Shown: positions 30,476 to 36,902 of the stretch, in pieces
Layout of the letters: every line of letters begins with the position of its first letter
Position numbering within the stretch: the stretch's first letter is position 1
Assembly (NCBI RefSeq): GCF_003258365.1
Contig: NZ_QHKM01000007.1
Location: 186,001 to 250,000 of the forward strand
Direction of reading: 5' to 3'
From: Hymenobacter edaphi
Lineage (GTDB): Bacteria; Bacteroidota; Bacteroidia; Cytophagales; Hymenobacteraceae
DNA: 64,000 bases
Made by a program: the position numbers and the translations under genes
The notes under the pieces: model-generated
Seen by the model: only the letters and a program-made list of their open reading frames with translations
What the model was told of the DNA's origin: nothing
The model's database searches: none

Positions 30476-32266
30476 TTAGTACACGTCCTCCAGGTAGCGG
30501 CGCTGCTTTTTCAGCCCGCGCACGTAGGCTTCGGCTGCTTCCGGCGAGACGCCCTGCGCCTGCTGCACCACGCTCACCAGGGCCCGGTGCACCGTCGCGG
30601 CCAGGCGCTGCCGGTCGCCGCAGACGTAGAAGTAGGCGCCGTTTTCCAGCCAGTCGTACACCTCGCGGGCGTGTTCCAGGAGGCGGTTGTGCACGTAGAT
30701 TTTCGCCGCTTGGTCGCGCGAAAACGCGACGTGAAGCTTGGCCAGCGTACCGCGCTTGAAGTGCTGCTGCCACTCCGCCTGGTACAGAAAGTCGGTGGTG
30801 AAGTGCGGGTTGCCGAACAGCAGCCAGTTCAGCCCGCCGGCCCCGCGCTCGGCGCGCTCCTCCACGAAGCCGCGAAACGGGGCCACGCCGGTGCCCGCGC
30901 CCACCATGATGATGTTGGCGTCCGGGTTCTGAGGCAGCTTGAAGTACTCGTTGCGCTCCACGAACACCCGCAGCTGGTCGCCGACCTGCACGCGGTCGGC
31001 CAGGTAGCACGAACACGCGCCCTGCTTCCGGCGGCCGTGGGCGTCGTAGCGCACGGCGCCCACCGTCAGGTGCGCCTCGTCCGGGTGGGCCAGCAGGCTG
31101 CTGGCCAGGGAGTAGGCCCGGGCCGGCAGCGGCCGCAGGGTATCCACCAGCTGCTGTGCCGATAGTTCGGCCGGGTAATCCACCAGCAAATCGGCGGCGT
31201 CGCGGCCGTAGAGGTAGCGCTGGAGCTGCTCGGTGGCCCCGGCCAGCTCCCGCAGCCGGGGCGCGGGGTGGTGCCGGGCGTAGCGTTCCAGCACATCGCG
31301 CGAGAGGGTGCTCAGCTCCAGCCGTTCCGCCAGAACCGTGGCCAGCGGCAGGGTTTCGCCCTGCAGCTGCACCGGTGCGTCGGCCCCGAGCTGGGTGGCG
31401 CGCAGCACTTCCTCCACCAGCGCCGCCGAGTTGGTCGGCACTACCGCCAGCGCGTCGCCGGGCTCGTACTGCAGGCCCGCGCCGGCCAGGGACAGCTCCA
31501 GGTGGTAGGTTTCCTTGGTCGAGCCGCGGCCGTTCAGCTGAATCTTTTCCAGTACCTCCACCGTCAGCGGGTGGTGGCGCGCGTATTCTTTCACTTCCAC
31601 CGGCGGGCTTTTCACGCTTGCCGCGGCCGGAGTGGCCTGGCCTAGCGCATCCAGCGCCGCCGCCATCCACTGCTGGGCATCAGCCTGAAAGTCCAGGTCG
31701 CAGTCCACGCGCGGGGCCAGGGCCGTGGCGCCCAACTTGCTCAACCGCTCGTCGAAGTCGCGGCCGGTCTGGCAGAAGTGCAGGTAGCTTCGGTCGCCCA
31801 GGGCCAGCACGCTGTAGCGCAGCGCGGGCAGCTGGGGCGCCCGGGCGCTGCCCAGAAAGCGGTGCAGCTCCTCGGCGGCCACCGGCGGCTCGCCCTCGCC
31901 CTGGGTGCTGACAACCAGCAGCAACACCTGCTCCTTGCCCAGCTCCCGGCCCTGGTAGTCGTTCATGTCGCGGGCCGTGGCGTCGAGGCCGCGCTGCCGG
32001 GCCGCTTCCACGGCTTGCAGGGCCACCTTTTTGCTGTTGCCGGTCTGGGAGCCGTACAGCACCGTAATGCGCGGCCGGGCGGCGGTGGCAACCGGCGGCG
32101 CGGCCGGTTCCGGGGCCGCCGCCGGGCCCGGGCCGGCGGCGTAGCGGCCGTAGAAGTAGCCGCTCAGCCAGAGCAGCTGCTGCTCGCTGAAGTCGCCGAC
32201 GAGCTGGCGCAGGGTGTTGTCGTCGAAGCCGATGGGCAGGCGCTGGTCGGTGGGGAGCGAGGACAT
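30476..32266 (-). CDS. cysJ: NADPH-dependent sulfite reductase flavoprotein
   Basis: This diflavin reductase passes electrons from NADPH through FAD and FMN to CysI. The 596-residue protein has an N-terminal flavodoxin domain (ITVLYGSQTGNSKKVALQAV near residue 70, VSTQGEGEPP and LGDRSYLHFCQTGRDFDERL), an FAD-binding domain with RAYSLASS, and an NADPH-binding domain with GAGTGVAPFRGFVEER and VYVCGD-like FYVCGDRQRLAATVHRAL. It ends RRYLEDVY, with the usual aromatic C-terminal residue. Length and domain order match CysJ. It is followed after 47 bases by the TonB-dependent receptor. Confidence 0.94.
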   Translation of the reverse strand: MSSLPTDQRLPIGFDDNTLRQLVGDFSEQQLLWLSGYFYGRYAAGPGPAAAPEPAAPPVATAARPRITVLYGSQTGNSKKVALQAVEAARQRGLDATARDMNDYQGRELGKEQVLLLVVSTQGEGEPPVAAEELHRFLGSARAPQLPALRYSVLALGDRSYLHFCQTGRDFDERLSKLGATALAPRVDCDLDFQADAQQWMAAALDALGQATPAAASVKSPPVEVKEYARHHPLTVEVLEKIQLNGRGSTKETYHLELSLAGAGLQYEPGDALAVVPTNSAALVEEVLRATQLGADAPVQLQGETLPLATVLAERLELSTLSRDVLERYARHHPAPRLRELAGATEQLQRYLYGRDAADLLVDYPAELSAQQLVDTLRPLPARAYSLASSLLAHPDEAHLTVGAVRYDAHGRRKQGACSCYLADRVQVGDQLRVFVERNEYFKLPQNPDANIIMVGAGTGVAPFRGFVEERAERGAGGLNWLLFGNPHFTTDFLYQAEWQQHFKRGTLAKLHVAFSRDQAAKIYVHNRLLEHAREVYDWLENGAYFYVCGDRQRLAATVHRALVSVVQQAQGVSPEAAEAYVRGLKKQRRYLEDVY

Positions 32267-32319: not shown

Positions 32320-33099
32320 TCAGGCCACGGCCGCCAGGGGCGCCAGCTGCGCGCCGAGGTCGGCCGGGGCCGCGGCCAGGTTGACTACTTCGCCGATGAC
32401 GATGATGGCCGGCGCCGTCAGGTCCGATTCGGCCACGCGCCGGGGCAGCTCGGCCACGGTGGTTTGCAGCAGCCGGGCGGTGGGCAGGGTGCCGTCCTGA
32501 ATCACGGCCGCCGGCCGCGCCCCGTGGCCGAAGTGCACGTAGGCGTCGGCAATGGCCTCAACCTGGCTCAGCCCCATCAGGATGACGGCCGTGGCCCGGG
32601 GCGCCTGGGCCGCCTTGATGACTTCCTCCGACAGCTCGCCATTGGCGGTGGTGGCGGTAATCACCCGGAACCCTTCGCTCAGGCCGCGGTGCGTGACGGG
32701 GATGCCCAGGCTACCGGGCACGGCCACGGCGCTGCTGATGCCCGGCACGTAGGCCGTCTGCAGGCCGTGGCGCTGGGCAAAAAGCATTTCCTCGCGCCCT
32801 CGCCCGAACACGAACGGGTCGCCGCCCTTCAGCCGCACCACGTGGCCGTGGACGCGGGCGTAGAGCACAATCAGGTCGTTGATTTCCTGCTGCAGGTGGG
32901 CCCGCATGCCTTTGCGCTTGCCCACGTACACTTTCTTCACCCCGGGGCGGGCGTAGTCGAGCAGGGCCGCGTTGCTCAGCGCGTCGTAGAGCACCACGTC
33001 GGCCTCAGCCAGCACGCGGGCGCCCTTCACGGTTATCAGCTCCGGGTCGCCGGGGCCAGCGCCCACCACGGTGAGGCGGGGCGTAATGAAAGTGGACAT
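32320..33099 (-). CDS. cobA: Uroporphyrinogen-III C-methyltransferase
   Basis: This SAM-dependent enzyme methylates uroporphyrinogen III twice to precorrin-2, the precursor of siroheme. The 259-residue protein has the family motifs TVVGAGPGDPELITVKGARVLAEADVVLYDAL at its start (GAGPGDP at 13-19), VRLKGGDPFVFGRGREEM, and YVPGISSAVAVPGSLGIPVTHRG. It is the stand-alone SUMT form; the dehydrogenase/chelatase activity is in the fused gene at the operon end. It starts 14 bases after the cysN stop, so the two are tightly linked. SAM is both its substrate and the probable riboswitch ligand of this operon. Confidence 0.93.
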   Translation of the reverse strand: MSTFITPRLTVVGAGPGDPELITVKGARVLAEADVVLYDALSNAALLDYARPGVKKVYVGKRKGMRAHLQQEINDLIVLYARVHGHVVRLKGGDPFVFGRGREEMLFAQRHGLQTAYVPGISSAVAVPGSLGIPVTHRGLSEGFRVITATTANGELSEEVIKAAQAPRATAVILMGLSQVEAIADAYVHFGHGARPAAVIQDGTLPTARLLQTTVAELPRRVAESDLTAPAIIVIGEVVNLAAAPADLGAQLAPLAAVA

Positions 33100-33113: not shown

Positions 33114-34385
33114 TTAAAGCTCAACTTCGGGTTCTGCCGGCGCCGTCTGCTCGATGAGCCCGGCTGCCAGCGTGGCACCGGTTTGCTCGTCGAGCAGGAT
33201 GAAGGCGCCGGTGGTGCGGTTCTGCTGGTAAGTGTCGGCGGCCAGCGGCCGGGCCGTTTTCAGCCGCACCCGCACGATATCGTTCAGGCGGGCCTCGGCG
33301 GCCGGCTGCTGCTCCAGCGTCTGAATGTTGGTGCGGGCCACGATGGCCTGCACCACGGCGCGGGTTTTGGCCGTGTGGTGCTGCACCAGCAGCTTGCGGC
33401 CCGGGCGCAGGGGCTGCTCCGCCATCCAGCACAGCGTGGCTTCCAGCTCCCGGGTGGGCACCGGCGCCTGCGCCAAGGGCACGATGGTGTCGCCGCGGCT
33501 CACGTCCACGTCGTCGGCCAGGCGCAGCACCACGCCCTGCGGCGCCACGGCTGCCGGCACTGCCTGCTGGTCGATTTCGATGGCCGCCAGCGTGGTTTCG
33601 ATGCCGGCGGGCAGCACCAGCACCCGGTCGCCGGGGCGGTACACCCCGCTCTGGATGCGGCCGGCGTAGCCGCGGTAGTCGGGCAGCTCCGCCGTCTGCG
33701 GGCGGATGACGTACTGCACCTGGAAGCGGGCCGCGTCGGTGGTGGCTTCGGTGGCTACCGTCACCGTTTCGAGGTGCTCCAGCAGATTGGGGCCCTGGTA
33801 CCAGGGCAGATTGGCCGAGGGCTTCACCACGTTGTCGCCGTTCAGGGCGCTGAGGGGGATGCTCACCACCTGCCGCAGGCCCAGCTGGGCGGCCACGGCG
33901 GCGTAGTCGGCCACGATGTCGCGGAACACCTGCTCGGAGTAGCCCACCAGGTCAATCTTGTTGACGGCCAGCACGAAGCGCCGGATGCCCAGCAGCGCCG
34001 CCACGATGGTGTGCCGCCGCGTCTGCTCCACCACGCCCTGCCGCGCATCCACCAGCACGATGGCCAGGTCGGCGTTGCTGGCGCCCGTCACCATGTTGCG
34101 GGTGTACTGCACGTGGCCGGGCGTGTCGGTGATGATAAACTTGCGGCGTGGCGTGGTGAAGTACTTGTGCGCCACGTCGATGGTGATGCCCTGTTCGCGC
34201 TCGGCCCGCAGCCCGTCTGTGAGCAAAGCCAAATCCACGGTGCCGGCCGCCGAGGTGCGGTTCTGCTCTTCCAGCGCGGCCAGCACGTCCAAAGACACGG
34301 CATCGGAATCATACAGCAACCGCCCAATCAGCGTGCTCTTGCCGTCGTCGACGCTGCCGCAGGTGATAAATCGGAGAAGGTCCAT
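33114..34385 (-). CDS. cysN: Sulfate adenylyltransferase GTPase subunit
   Basis: CysN couples GTP hydrolysis to sulfate activation with CysD, giving adenosine 5'-phosphosulfate. The 423-residue protein is an EF-Tu-like GTPase: P-loop GSVDDGKST at 10-18, DTPGHVQYTRNMVTGAS as switch II and NKIDLVGYS as the base-specificity motif, followed by two beta-barrel domains. There is no fused APS kinase (CysC) domain. That fits the cysH product here, which has the motifs of an APS-using reductase and would not need PAPS. It lies 120 bases downstream of cysD, across an inverted-repeat spacer. Confidence 0.94.
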   Translation of the reverse strand: MDLLRFITCGSVDDGKSTLIGRLLYDSDAVSLDVLAALEEQNRTSAAGTVDLALLTDGLRAEREQGITIDVAHKYFTTPRRKFIITDTPGHVQYTRNMVTGASNADLAIVLVDARQGVVEQTRRHTIVAALLGIRRFVLAVNKIDLVGYSEQVFRDIVADYAAVAAQLGLRQVVSIPLSALNGDNVVKPSANLPWYQGPNLLEHLETVTVATEATTDAARFQVQYVIRPQTAELPDYRGYAGRIQSGVYRPGDRVLVLPAGIETTLAAIEIDQQAVPAAVAPQGVVLRLADDVDVSRGDTIVPLAQAPVPTRELEATLCWMAEQPLRPGRKLLVQHHTAKTRAVVQAIVARTNIQTLEQQPAAEARLNDIVRVRLKTARPLAADTYQQNRTTGAFILLDEQTGATLAAGLIEQTAPAEPEVEL

Positions 34386-34390
34386 TTGGT

Positions 34391-34508
34391 GAGATGGTGA
34401 GATGGTGAAGTGGTGAGTTTGATGTTCTGAGAGGTGATGAATGCGCTGGCGTCGGCAGGCTTTGCGCCTTGGTGGCCGACACTCACGATTTCACCATCTC
34501 ACCACTTA
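34391..34508. repeat. Low-complexity inverted repeat between cysD and cysN
   Basis: GAGATGGTGAGATGGTGAAGTGGTGAG-like sequence (34391-34417) is an imperfect inverted copy of CTCACGATTTCACCATCTCACCACTT (34482-34508). The right arm overlaps the last codon and stop of cysD. In the mRNA it can fold as a long hairpin and may tune the cysD/cysN ratio. Confidence 0.55.
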
Positions 34509-35420
34509 GAAGTAGCCGTTGCGCTTCCGGTCTTCCATGCCGGTTTCCGAAATCCGGTCGTCGAGGCGGGTGGCGCCCCGCTCGCTGACTTTGGCCTGCA
34601 GGATGTCGTCGATGATGGCGGCGAGGGTGCTGGCGTCGCTTTCCACGGCGGCGGTGCAGGTCGCGTCGCCCACGGTGCGGAAGCGCACCTGCCGGGTGGT
34701 CAGCTCGTCGGTGGCGTCGAGGGTGAGGTGCTCGGTCACGGCCAGCAGCTGGCCCGAGGGCAGCACCACGCAGCGCCGCTCGTGGGCGAAGTAGATGCTG
34801 GGCAGCGGGATGTTCTCGCGCTGGATGTAGTTCCACACGTCCAGCTCCGTCCAGTTCGATATCGGGAACACCCGCACGTTCTCGCCCGGCTGAATCTGCC
34901 CGTTGTAGATGTTCCACAGCTCGGGCCGCTGCCGGCGCGGGTCCCATTGCCCAAACTCGTCGCGCACCGAGAAGATGCGCTCCTTGGCCCGGGCCTTTTC
35001 CTCGTCGCGCCGCGCCCCGCCGATGCAGGCGTCGAAGCCAAACTCCTCCACGGTGTCGAGCAAGGTGTAGGTCTGCAGGGCGTTGCGGCTGGGAAACTTG
35101 CCGCCCGGCTCCCGCAGGCCGCGCTGCCGGATGGTGTCTTCCACCCGGCGCACAATCAGCTGCTCGCCCAGCTCGGCCGCCAGCCGGTCGCGGAACGCCA
35201 GCACTTCCGGGAAGTTGTGGCCGGTGTCGATGTGGACCAGCGGAAAGGGAAACTTGCCGGGGCGGAAGGCTTTCTGGGCCAGGCGCACCAGCGCAATGGA
35301 GTCTTTGCCGCCCGAAAACAGCAGGGCGGGGCGCTGAAACTGCCCGGCCACTTCCCGCAGGATGTGGACGGCTTCGGCTTCGAGCCGGTCGAGGTAATCT
35401 AAGCGGGGGAGCGTAGGCAT
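34506..35420 (-). CDS. cysD: Sulfate adenylyltransferase subunit 2
   Basis: CysD forms APS from ATP and sulfate together with CysN. The 304-residue protein belongs to the PP-loop ATP pyrophosphatase superfamily, with SGGKDS at residues 36-41 in ALLFSGGKDSIALVRLAQKAF. Other family blocks are FPLVHIDTGHNFPEVLAFRD, FDACIGGARRDEEKARAKERIFSVRDEFGQWDPRRQRPELWNIYNG and the C-terminal KRNGYF. Length matches E. coli CysD. It lies 245 bases downstream of cysH; a REP-like repeat fills part of that gap. Confidence 0.95.
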   Translation of the reverse strand: MPTLPRLDYLDRLEAEAVHILREVAGQFQRPALLFSGGKDSIALVRLAQKAFRPGKFPFPLVHIDTGHNFPEVLAFRDRLAAELGEQLIVRRVEDTIRQRGLREPGGKFPSRNALQTYTLLDTVEEFGFDACIGGARRDEEKARAKERIFSVRDEFGQWDPRRQRPELWNIYNGQIQPGENVRVFPISNWTELDVWNYIQRENIPLPSIYFAHERRCVVLPSGQLLAVTEHLTLDATDELTTRQVRFRTVGDATCTAAVESDASTLAAIIDDILQAKVSERGATRLDDRISETGMEDRKRNGYF

Positions 35421-35665: not shown

Positions 35666-36427
35666 CTAGGGAGTGGCAACAGTGGCGGGCGAAGCCGCTT
35701 CGACCGGGGTGTCGGCGGTGGCGTGCAGGCCGCACTCCTTGGCCGATTGGTCTTCCCACCACCAGCGGCCGGCGCGGAAGTCTTCGCCGGGCTTTACGGC
35801 CCGGGTACACGGCGCGCAGCCGATGCTCACGAAGCCCTGCAAATGCAGCGGGTTGTGCGGAATGCCGTATTCGCGGACGAAGGCCCAGGTCTGCTCCCAG
35901 CTCCAGTCCAGCAGCGGATTCACCTTGAACAGCTGGTAGCCCGCGTCCCAGTCCACCGCGTGCATGCCGGTGCGGTTTGCCGACTGCTCGCTGCGGACGC
36001 CCGTTATCCAGGCGGCCCTGCCGGCCAGGGCGCGGTGCAGCGGCTCCACCTTGCGCACGTTGCAGCAGGCTTTGCGCGCGTCCACGCTTTCGTAAAACCC
36101 GTTCGGGCCCTGCCGCTCCACCAGGGCGGCTATTTCGTCCTGATCGGGGAAATAAGCGCGAATGGTTTTGCCGTATTTCAGCACGGTTTTGCTCCAGGTC
36201 GAATACGTTTCCTGGAAATTCCGCCCGGTGTCGAGCGTAAATACTTCGATGGGCAGATTATGGGCAAAAATCAAGTGGGTAATTACCTGATCTTCGAGCC
36301 CGAAAGAGGTGGAAAACGCCGCTTTGCCGGCAAATTCGGCGGCCACGGCACGAAGAATATCCAGCGGATCGGCGCCGGCAAGCTGTTGCCGGAGCTGCGC
36401 CACCTGTGCATCGATAAGGGTCGACAT
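35666..36427 (-). CDS. cysH: Adenylyl-sulfate (APS-type) reductase
   Basis: This enzyme reduces activated sulfate to sulfite. The 253-residue protein has the PP-loop-like start AAFSTSFGLEDQVITHLI and LDTGRNFQETY. It also carries the cysteine set of the [4Fe-4S]-containing, APS-using class: CC at 121-122, CAPC at 204-207, and the catalytic Cys 232 in ECGLH. PAPS-specific enzymes lack the CC and CxxC pairs. No CysC kinase is found in the operon, which agrees. It is the first gene after a long leader with a SAM riboswitch and a Cys-rich leader peptide. The last 15 residues are an Ala/Pro/Thr tail. Confidence 0.94.
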   Translation of the reverse strand: MSTLIDAQVAQLRQQLAGADPLDILRAVAAEFAGKAAFSTSFGLEDQVITHLIFAHNLPIEVFTLDTGRNFQETYSTWSKTVLKYGKTIRAYFPDQDEIAALVERQGPNGFYESVDARKACCNVRKVEPLHRALAGRAAWITGVRSEQSANRTGMHAVDWDAGYQLFKVNPLLDWSWEQTWAFVREYGIPHNPLHLQGFVSIGCAPCTRAVKPGEDFRAGRWWWEDQSAKECGLHATADTPVEAASPATVATP

Positions 36428-36445
36428 GCGCAGTATTTCTGAGAC

Positions 36446-36470
36446 CCGTCGGCGCAGGCAGCGCCGACGG
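36446..36470 (-). promoter_or_regulatory. Stable hairpin just upstream of cysH
   Basis: CCGTCGGCGC and GCGCCGACGG form a 10-base-pair stem with a 5-base loop, about 18 bases before the cysH ATG. It has no T-run, so it is more likely to mask ribosome access or pause polymerase than to be a simple terminator. Forward positions 36471-36505 read as a C-rich, little-structured stretch on the transcript, a possible Rho-loading site. Confidence 0.5.
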
Positions 36471-36548
36471 CGGTCGGAAGGTAAAGAGGGGAGGGGGCCA
36501 GACGGCCCGGGGCCGCAAGGCGGGCTCAGGCGGCGCGGCCGGACACGG

Positions 36549-36578
36549 CTAAGCGGCGCGCAAAAGCCTGGCGCTTAG
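36549..36578 (-). promoter_or_regulatory. Second leader hairpin CTAAGCG/CGCTTAG
   Basis: Perfect 7-base arms (36549-36555 and 36572-36578) lie 46 bases beyond the stop codon of the leader peptide, within reach of a ribosome-stalling effect. No direct proof of function. Confidence 0.35.
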
Positions 36579-36623
36579 TTGTCGGGCGTTTCCAGCAAGG
36601 GAAAAGAGGTCGTGCAAAAAGCC

Positions 36624-36665
36624 TCAACAACACGCGCGGCGCATGGGCATACAACAGCAACGCAT
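36624..36665 (-). CDS. Cys/Met-rich leader peptide of the sulfate operon
   Basis: The frame ATG CGT TGC TGT TGT ATG CCC ATG CGC CGC GCG TGT TGT TGA encodes MRCCCMPMRRACC. Five of 13 codons are Cys and three are Met, the two sulfur amino acids, in a leader that already contains a SAM riboswitch and precedes sulfate reduction genes. Chance Cys runs of this kind are very unlikely in high-GC DNA, where TGT is rare. An in-frame start at 36716 would extend it to 30 residues (MMAGSAASQPGRNGFYG before the core). Leader peptides with Cys runs that stall ribosomes when cysteinyl-tRNA is short are known before sulfur genes in Actinobacteria; the role here is inferred by analogy. Confidence 0.65.
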   Translation of the reverse strand: MRCCCMPMRRACC

Positions 36666-36752
36666 GCCGTAGAAGCCATTGCGGCCCGGCTGCGAAGCAG
36701 CGGAACCAGCCATCATTGCGCGGGGGGTGAAATCGAAGTTCACGACGAGCGG

Positions 36753-36846
36753 TGTTTTTATATGATCAGGAATTGGCACCGTTCGGGACTCCGATGGTTG
36801 CCGGCGCTTCGTAGAGCCTGTCTCTCCACGCCTCTGTATAAAAACA
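36753..36846 (-). ncRNA. SAM riboswitch (SAM-I clan, compact form)
   Basis: On the minus strand the core reads GGCGTGGAGAGACAGGCTC, then TACGAAGCGCCGGCAACC, then GGTGCCAATTCC, the conserved S-box segments. P1 is TGTTTTTATA/TATAAAAACA (perfect, 10 pairs), P2 is GGCG/CGCC with AGAG/CTCT above it, P3 is GGCAACC/GGTGCC, and CAGG in the P2 loop can pair with CCTG after AATT as the pseudoknot. I see no P4 between P3 and P1, which points to the compact SAM-I/IV-like variant rather than a full S box. It begins about 17 bases after the predicted transcription start and lies about 325 bases before cysH. Confidence 0.85.
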
Positions 36847-36869: not shown

Positions 36870-36902
36870 CAAAGGTAATGACACAATTTTCGGAATTGCA
36901 AA
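36870..36902 (-). promoter_or_regulatory. Promoter of the sulfate assimilation operon
   Basis: TACCTTTG on the minus strand (36877 to 36870) is a perfect -7 TAnnTTTG box, with TTTG (36902 to 36899) 21 bases upstream as the -33 element. Transcription from near 36863 would run straight into the SAM riboswitch, which supports both calls. Confidence 0.7.

Follow-up and report, generated by a model that had tools for sequence, protein, structure and literature searches.

A SAM-I-type aptamer joined to a cysteine-codon leader frame before cysH in Hymenobacter edaphi and before sulfur genes of its relatives: a candidate two-input switch

A short frame crowded with Cys and Met codons precedes the sulfate assimilation genes of Hymenobacter edaphi, and the question is what such a leader reads, and how. 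The locus lies in a stretch of 64,000 nucleotides (contig NZ_QHKM01000007.1, positions 186,001 to 250,000), called the window hereafter. All features are on the minus strand, in the order promoter-like elements, SAM-I-type aptamer, leader of 39 codons, 196 nt with predicted hairpins, and cysH. The gene for phosphoadenylyl-sulfate reductase, cysH (35666-36427; NCBIfam NF002537, 266.1 bits, cut-off 154), is followed by cysD and cysN, for the small and large subunits of sulfate adenylyltransferase (34506-35420, TIGR02039, 410.1 bits, cut-off 396.6; 33114-34385, TIGR02034, 540.7 bits, cut-off 336.1), by a cobA-like gene for a uroporphyrinogen-III C-methyltransferase of siroheme synthesis (32320-33099; TIGR01469, 256.9 bits, cut-off 185), and by cysJ, for the sulfite reductase flavoprotein (30476-32266; TIGR01931, 698.4 bits, cut-off 668.15). 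Every gene scores above the cut-off of its NCBIfam model. The promoter-like elements (36870-36902), read from the sequence, are of the Bacteroidetes type, with TTTG at 36902-36899 and TAccTTTG at 36877-36870. The TTTG element usually sits at -33, and the 21 nt spacer found in the window is longer than the usual spacing.

A sequence-only reading of this DNA had placed upstream of cysH a frame of 13 codons, MRCCCMPMRRACC, starting at an ATG at 36665 and ending at a stop at 36626-36624, with an optional extension to an in-frame ATG at 36716. Both ATGs and the frame are present on the minus strand, and the 13 codons do include 5 for Cys and 3 for Met, as counted there. The start codon had been misplaced. 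It is most likely the GTG at 36743, 27 nt upstream of 36716, from which the leader reads VNFDFTPRAMMAGSAASQPGRNGFYGMRCCCMPMRRACC (36624-36743; 39 codons and TGA), as judged from the reading frame and its orthologues. This GTG is kept in 7/7 cysH leaders found in the genus (window included), and a GTG start is present in 47/47 parsed cysH leaders of the Hymenobacteraceae. The ATG at 36716 is absent from 4 of the 7 genus leaders and that at 36665 occurs, in the alignment, in the window sequence only; both were rejected as starts because they are not conserved among relatives while the GTG is. Cys codons are grouped as TGC TGT TGT at 36651-36659, and as TGT TGT at 36627-36632, adjoining the stop codon. 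The frame seen in that reading stands, with a different start; overlooked was the SAM-I-type aptamer next to it (36755-36844), whose 3' end is separated from the leader start codon by 11 nt.

Compared among orthologues, the leader frame is under coding selection. In four orthologue groups dN/dS measured 0.55, 0.52, 0.33, and 0.54. Cys columns were better kept than other columns in three of the groups, at 121/137 vs 392/637 (the cysH leaders of the genus), 113/190 vs 265/635, and 119/218 vs 473/1345, the exception being the third group in order (40/52 vs 174/213). Kept Cys pairs with a synonymous change numbered 31, 33, 14, and 53 in the same order of groups, the group of 119/218 coming last. 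The proposal that Cys codons would prove conserved in a leader reading Cys, and perhaps Met, before sulfur genes of Bacteroidetes was borne out by the genus set. It is in keeping with the cysH leaders of the Hymenobacteraceae, 51 loci among the best 80 cysH matches, of which 47 were parsed: 46/47 encode at least 3 Cys, 36 encode three Cys in a row (CCC), 44 contain Met somewhere after residue 12, and in 40 Met succeeds CC or CCx. CCC frames are present also in the four loci that were not parsed (L281, L292, L325, L327). A short conserved ORF with a run of codons for an amino acid made by the pathway is the usual mark of a responsive leader peptide, and the frame may be classed on this ground as a putative Cys-responsive leader. 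The motif QHGCCxM is found in 20/47 parsed leaders (among L285-L320), and its codons might fold, judged by eye, into a small hairpin around those for the first Cys residues. One of the 47, from Hymenobacter siberiensis (L334), has an early stop (MSTLLNSRL), and its Cys codons persist downstream in an ATG frame.

The window aptamer belongs by score to RF00162, the SAM or S-box family (73.2 bits, gathering score 44.4), and matches the full length of the model (1-108). The canonical SAM-I aptamer has four helices; the window has 2 nt where the model has 18 for helix P4, and is because of this a P4-less variant rather than the canonical form, SAM binding being putative. The 5' strand of helix P1, UUUUUAUA, lies at 36837-36844, as placed by alignment to the model and by covariation of the outer P1 pairs (see below). 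The 3' strand, UAUAAAAA, with 2 further pairs, covers 36753-36762, and coincides with the A-rich upstream part of the presumed initiation region of the leader.

RF00162 aptamers were searched by profile in the genome of the window, in 8 genomes of the genus (the former included), and in 100 genomes of the family, 118 of the order, and 148 of the phylum. The 279 loci analysed, 119 taken from the searches and 160 chosen by hand, are a non-random sample made of the better-scoring among the matches listed; near relatives are over-represented, and related sequences are not independent. Families are numbered as in the survey, f1 being, as we infer, the Hymenobacteraceae. A strict motif check flagged 123/279 aptamers, but their placement looked right by eye, and all 279 were kept. 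For the first downstream gene we took the longest of the ATG frames that start in the next 900 nt, so that its start may be placed too early or too late; 1/279 loci had no such frame. Downstream genes were clustered by BLAST and named from one Pfam or NCBIfam representative per cluster, the names metX and NhaC-like deriving from NCBIfam matches below cut-offs.

Loci were sorted into two classes from the aptamer alone. Class B aptamers have an AU-rich P1 whose first bases are UUUAU or AUUAU, the following strand containing GAGAGA (or AAGAGA); the others form class A. The final rule gives 148 class B loci, 98 with CCC leaders, and 131 class A loci with none, figures to be read knowing that a first version of the rule was written with the leaders of the first 119 loci already in view, and was changed with all 279 in view. 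By that first version 84 of 129 class B loci and 14 of 150 class A loci had CCC, aptamers reading GGGAGAGA falling in class A; the revision moved 27 loci, 14 of them with CCC. If P1 sequence alone is used, the split is 98/150 vs 0/129. Of the four aptamers in the genome of the window itself (L001-L004), three are class B with CCC leaders (ahead of cysH, an amino-acid permease gene, and a metY-type gene), and the one ahead of metH is class A. The TAnnTTTG sequence, described as a Bacteroidetes-type promoter consensus in the accessible text of PMC9723704, was found within 70 nt 5' of the aptamer in 80/148 class B (shuffled mean 6.3) and 58/130 class A loci (shuffled 7.1).

Short frames starting 2-18 nt after the aptamer are found in 136/148 class B and 44/131 class A loci, and encode at least 3 Cys in 113 and 5 loci, respectively. 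When the 200 nt located 3' of each class B aptamer were shuffled, CCC frames appeared on average in 0.06 of the 148 loci (at most 1), against 98 observed, and chance is because of this an insufficient explanation of the CCC frames; with no class split the values are 98/279 observed, 0.13 on average after shuffling, and 2 at most. In the same DNA CCC occurs 98 times in frame 0, never in frame +1, once in frame +2, and twice in the three reverse frames together. The 98 loci are spread over 69 genomes and 11 families, 63 of them being in f1. The start codon (66 ATG, 32 GTG) is 7-12 nt from the aptamer in 92/98 CCC leaders, and in 83/98 no more than 2 residues separate the last Cys run from the stop. 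TGT (433) is used more than TGC (216) in class B leaders. CCC is missing from 50/148 class B loci. With metX and metH targets left out, the CCC-less loci are 33/130, and 21 of the 33 belong to f5 (7/8), f11 (4/4), f17 (2/2), and f19 (8/9), with 8 others in f1 (8/71).

In the f1 class B loci (n=71) the P4 region is either a tail of 13 nt (32 loci) or measures at least 24 nt (36 loci), 3 loci being unparsed. P4-less aptamers with the fixed 13-nt tail are found in the window and in 31 other f1 class B loci (as L003, L007, L046, and L271), and 29 of the 32 are followed by CCC leaders. P1 is long in CCC-bearing class B loci. With counting begun at the model ends and carried both inward and outward, which lets a mismatch at an end lower the count, contiguous pairs average 9.2 in these loci (2.35 beyond the Rfam model), vs 3.3 in class A. 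Outer pairs covary over the 148 class B loci; at position -1, the first pair beyond the model, GC occurs in 42, TA in 37, TG in 25, AT in 8, and CG in 7. The extended P1 ends most commonly 6 nt before the start codon (33/98 CCC loci), and the residues from -16 to -10 before the start codon of CCC-bearing loci are mostly A, with T at -15.

Complements of the P1 5' strand, which would form an anti-P1 platform, were sought downstream, and in CCC-bearing class B loci show no excess (longest match 5.61 on average, 5.73 after shuffling). In class A they are in excess (7.0 vs 5.53 after shuffling; at least 9 nt in 28/131 loci). No ordinary anti-P1 platform can be discerned in class B, since the excess present in class A is absent there. 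In class B loci lacking CCC, an ATG is found at +6 to +12 in 33/50 cases (shuffled mean 4.8), compared with 10/131 in class A. At one locus (L163) the class B aptamer directly precedes metX, and the metX start codon is at +9, where leaders start elsewhere. From these data we infer that the class B platform would be P1 itself, laid over the initiation region of the next frame, which in most class B loci is the leader peptide. The SAM-I type of control termed direct translation attenuation, in which, according to the accessible text of PMC2258182, the ribosome-binding site resides in the 3' side of P1, is alike in that this strand would serve initiation at the frame that comes next, and unlike in that here the next frame is a leader peptide and not an enzyme gene. 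The mRNAs of Bacteroidota naturally lack Shine-Dalgarno sequences, and initiation in Flavobacterium johnsoniae is tuned by structure and by upstream A residues, as stated in the available part of PMC6847099.

The codons of class B leaders vary with the operon. CCC is found in 17/20 leaders before cysH, 43/68 before metY or cystathionine-synthase type genes, 13/13 before RimK-like ATP-grasp genes, 12/12 before amino-acid permease genes, 4/4 before NhaC-like transporter genes, and 4/5 before genes for SusC-type receptors, but in 1/14 before metX and 0/4 before metH. The Cys run goes with cysteine-linked genes (97/130 once metX and metH are excluded), and is nearly absent before metX and metH (1/18 together). 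That Met codons accompany the Cys run, as had been remarked for the window alone, is a wider trait. From six residues before the first Cys pair onward Met makes up 95/769 of the non-Cys residues, vs 38/2334 of the residues elsewhere, an enrichment which supports the reading of both Cys and Met, related sequences not being independent. Among CCC leaders, Met is present in that part in 28/43 metY-type, 13/17 cysH, 1/12 permease, and 4/13 RimK-like cases. Thirteen class B leaders, every one with CCC, stand before the RimK-like ATP-grasp gene (L024, L028, L029, L041, L044, and others); as to its role, one may guess at a thiol- or cysteine-ligating enzyme.

These features suggest that the cysH leader is a switch with two inputs, in which two sensors are set in series, the SAM aptamer and then a leader peptide reading Cys; leaving aside the nature of the effector, this is probable. 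When SAM is bound, P1, ending a few nt before the leader start codon, would hold the A-rich initiation region, and the leader would stay untranslated. When SAM is low the leader would be translated, and scarcity of Cys-tRNA, perhaps also of Met-tRNA, would stall the ribosome near the end of the frame. The operon would be expressed only when SAM and Cys are both low. Control of leader initiation by SAM is likely, and stalling on the Cys codons slightly more so; a sensor of Cys-tRNA would be expected to look like this, with Cys codons in a row where a translated leader ends. The evidence, drawn from comparison of sequences, supports the two-sensor core well: an aptamer coupled to a start codon, a Cys run conserved as coding sequence, target genes of a particular kind, Met enriched next to the run, C in excess over G, and no anti-P1 pairing.

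How the stalled ribosome would act on cysH is a matter of more tentative proposals. Since the leader and the stretch that follows are rich in C and poor in G, a leader left untranslated (SAM high), or left by a ribosome that has finished and departed (Cys high), would expose a Rho-loading region, which a ribosome stalled near the stop codon would cover, as happens with TnaC in E. coli. The TnaC and MgtL leaders of enterobacteria are similar in that the position of the ribosome on a short leader decides the access of Rho; they answer to other signals and have no SAM aptamer, and in the present leaders the role of Rho is conjectural. C exceeds G in 93/97 leader N-termini and 94/98 stop-to-gene stretches, compared with 62/98 upstream of the aptamer, 79/98 at gene starts, and 75/120 in class A leaders, and does so also in 42/47 class B leaders without CCC. 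The log2 of C/G is 0.48 in class B vs 0.07 in class A within f1 (p 1e-5), and 0.88 vs 0.25 outside f1 (p 1e-9). Composition is of the C-rich, G-poor kind expected for Rho loading, of which the bias is a weak sign. Rho is encoded in the genome (627.7 bits). Rho is the likeliest effector of both signals among those considered, at a probability that we would rate somewhat below even.

The same two sensors could act by refolding of the RNA, the stalled ribosome re-pairing the hairpins between leader and gene, so as to open a terminator or the initiation region of cysH. The two hairpins that had been noticed between leader and cysH are real predictions: from the alignment of the 7 genus cysH leaders, three conserved hairpins and an outer stem are predicted, at 36542-36583 (hairpin 1, by fold and alignment), 36511-36540 (hairpin 2, from the 7-sequence alignment), and 36443-36474 (hairpin 3, by fold and alignment, its end being some 15 nt from the start codon of cysH). 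Changes on both sides are kept in 14/39 pairs, the covariation term of the fold being small (-0.99 of -28.38 kcal/mol). Set against dinucleotide shuffles, stretches from leader stop to gene are more structured (mean z -1.54, s.e. 0.17), as in class A (-1.68) and, less so, in class B loci without CCC (-0.89); for the window's own stretch the difference is modest (z -1.57, 13/200 shuffles as good). In the minimum-energy fold of the window's locus (L002) the last Cys codons (GUUGUUG) are paired with 36584-36578, in the 5' arm of hairpin 1. This pairing was considered as a general feature and rejected, since over the 98 loci the Cys stretch has little excess complementarity downstream (mean z -0.2, s.e. 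0.1), less than the N-terminal part of the leader has (-0.43), and the switching of hairpins by a stalled ribosome, as first imagined, is not supported. The 20 nt before the gene start, moreover, are on average the least paired part. Terminator-like sites are present at 15/98 CCC loci (4.3 after shuffling), 4 of the 15 inside the leader frame, and some loci may on this ground use intrinsic termination; but 83/98 lack such a site, the window's locus among them. In class A, terminator-like sites precede 21/43 metY-type and 3/52 metH genes. As the general output step, refolding is rather doubtful.

Other explanations dispense with the reading of Cys codons by the ribosome. The UGY run might be an RNA element, an anti-aptamer strand able to pair with the aptamer core AGCAACC. 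In loci having this core (n=38) the longest exact complement between Cys tail and aptamer averages 6.47 nt, vs 5.93 after synonymous shuffling, and reaches at least 8 in 7/38; in loci with other cores (n=60, the window's type included) the values are 5.32 and 5.27, and none reaches 8. CCC is confined to the frame of the leader, and Cys runs occur before cysH in 5/6 loci of Saprospiraceae, Chitinophagales, and another Bacteroidetes genome assembled from a metagenome, all without a SAM riboswitch at gathering score. The anti-aptamer strand was rejected for the core type of the window, a faint signal being left in the AGCAACC subset, and is very improbable as an explanation of the Cys run. It is improbable also, if to a lesser degree, that the peptide acts as a molecule and not through the supply of Cys-tRNA, be it a nascent chain sensing metals, redox state, or SAM, or a free small protein. 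Metals could be bound by the longest Cys runs, which reach eight (L068), and QHGCCxM recurs, but N-terminal sequence and length are not shared across families, in contrast to Cys and Met near the stop, the window peptide has no family match in Pfam or NCBIfam, and the targets that could be named are mostly sulfur and amino-acid genes. That the riboswitch alone matters and the frame is a chance by-product could be argued from the 50 class B loci without CCC; against the number of CCC frames expected by chance, and the conservation of start, frame, codons, and gene specificity, this can hardly be credited. Two sensors in series, the second read by the ribosome, are the preferred reading. In its widest form, which as a whole is somewhat more likely than not, the architecture would be widespread in Cytophagales and relatives, the riboswitch governing translation of an amino-acid-sensing leader and not of the enzyme gene, as a serial NOR gate with a single output step (inputs: not SAM, not Cys-tRNA, and in methionine operons perhaps also not Met-tRNA), with leader codons tuned to the operon: cysH and many metY-type genes would have Cys together with Met, the permease gene mostly Cys by itself, and metX hardly ever a run.

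Frames with Cys runs are found also without the riboswitch. The 5 frames before cysH mentioned above (L338, L339, L345, L346, L357) start 228-299 nt before the cysH match, and 0/6 of the loci of the Saprospiraceae, Chitinophagales, and unplaced Bacteroidetes assembly have a SAM riboswitch at gathering score. No CCC frame was found before cysH in 23 loci of Mucilaginibacter, Pedobacter, and Parapedobacter. At about 1497 of L367, on the minus strand, the frame MFFLSHTCCCCCCC lies 60 nt before a gene read by eye as cysS (cysteinyl-tRNA synthetase). In two genomes of f26 a dioxygenase-like gene, named by eye, is preceded by a short frame holding an unbroken row of Cys codons, nine in L379 and six in L388. 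Poly-Cys leaders may be, as these few loci suggest, a separate module of Bacteroidota, joined to the SAM aptamer in Cytophagales. A genome-wide search for six TGY codons matched 166/296 genomes, and was discarded as a poor leader finder, 21/31 runs (30 loci) residing in frames that were long or lacked a start codon.

The two parts of the leader have relatives among known systems. Poly-Cys ORFs of Actinobacteria are alike, being short, located before cys genes, with a Cys run near the stop and no conserved terminator hairpins, as described in the available part of a 2005 paper (PMC1262725). The same text also proposed Rho, calling the prediction weak, and mentions no riboswitch for cys operons (PMC1262725). 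The leaders studied here are found in a different phylum, start 7-12 nt after a SAM-I-type aptamer in nearly all cases, and often encode Met too. Mycobacterial poly-Cys ORFs are reportedly leaderless, as the title of the work of Canestrari and colleagues from 2020 (Mol. Microbiol. 114:93) says. The present frames are apparently not of this sort, a 90-nt aptamer and promoter-like elements lying 5' of the start codon. In Rhodobacterales the uORFC-8-2 motif before cysS is similarly a conserved uORF with Cys codons, for which ribosome-mediated attenuation has been proposed; it differs in having two Cys codons inside a stem and an intrinsic terminator, and the accessible text mentions no SAM riboswitch (PMC8632094). 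Tandem SAM-I / T-box(Met) logic gates likewise combine a SAM-I aptamer and an amino-acid sensor in one leader, and are on under a shortage of both SAM and the amino acid; their second sensor, in the portion of the source available, is an RNA that binds uncharged tRNA (PMC9481103), while here it is a translated codon run, whose translation is seemingly controlled by the first sensor. Clues for leader-peptide attenuation before amino-acid operons are reported in the accessible part of a flavobacterial transcriptome paper (PMC9723704). A SAM riboswitch joined to a Cys leader was not found described in the open-access literature searched, where a subscription paper could be missed. By the comparisons made here the pairing of aptamer and leader is real and conserved, made of two known regulatory kinds, and undescribed within that literature.

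The recurrence of the same aptamer-leader pair before sulfur genes in several related families suggests a switch with two signals, responsive to the end product of the pathway as well as to the supply of cysteine. If this is true, it is a naturally occurring gate with two inputs, the RNA aptamer determining if the ribosome-based sensor is read at all, and a clear Bacteroidota example of riboswitch control through an A-rich initiation region. SAM riboswitches of the class B type without a visible expression platform may act on unannotated leader frames. The switch would also explain how sulfate assimilation and methionine synthesis are matched to both SAM and cysteine.
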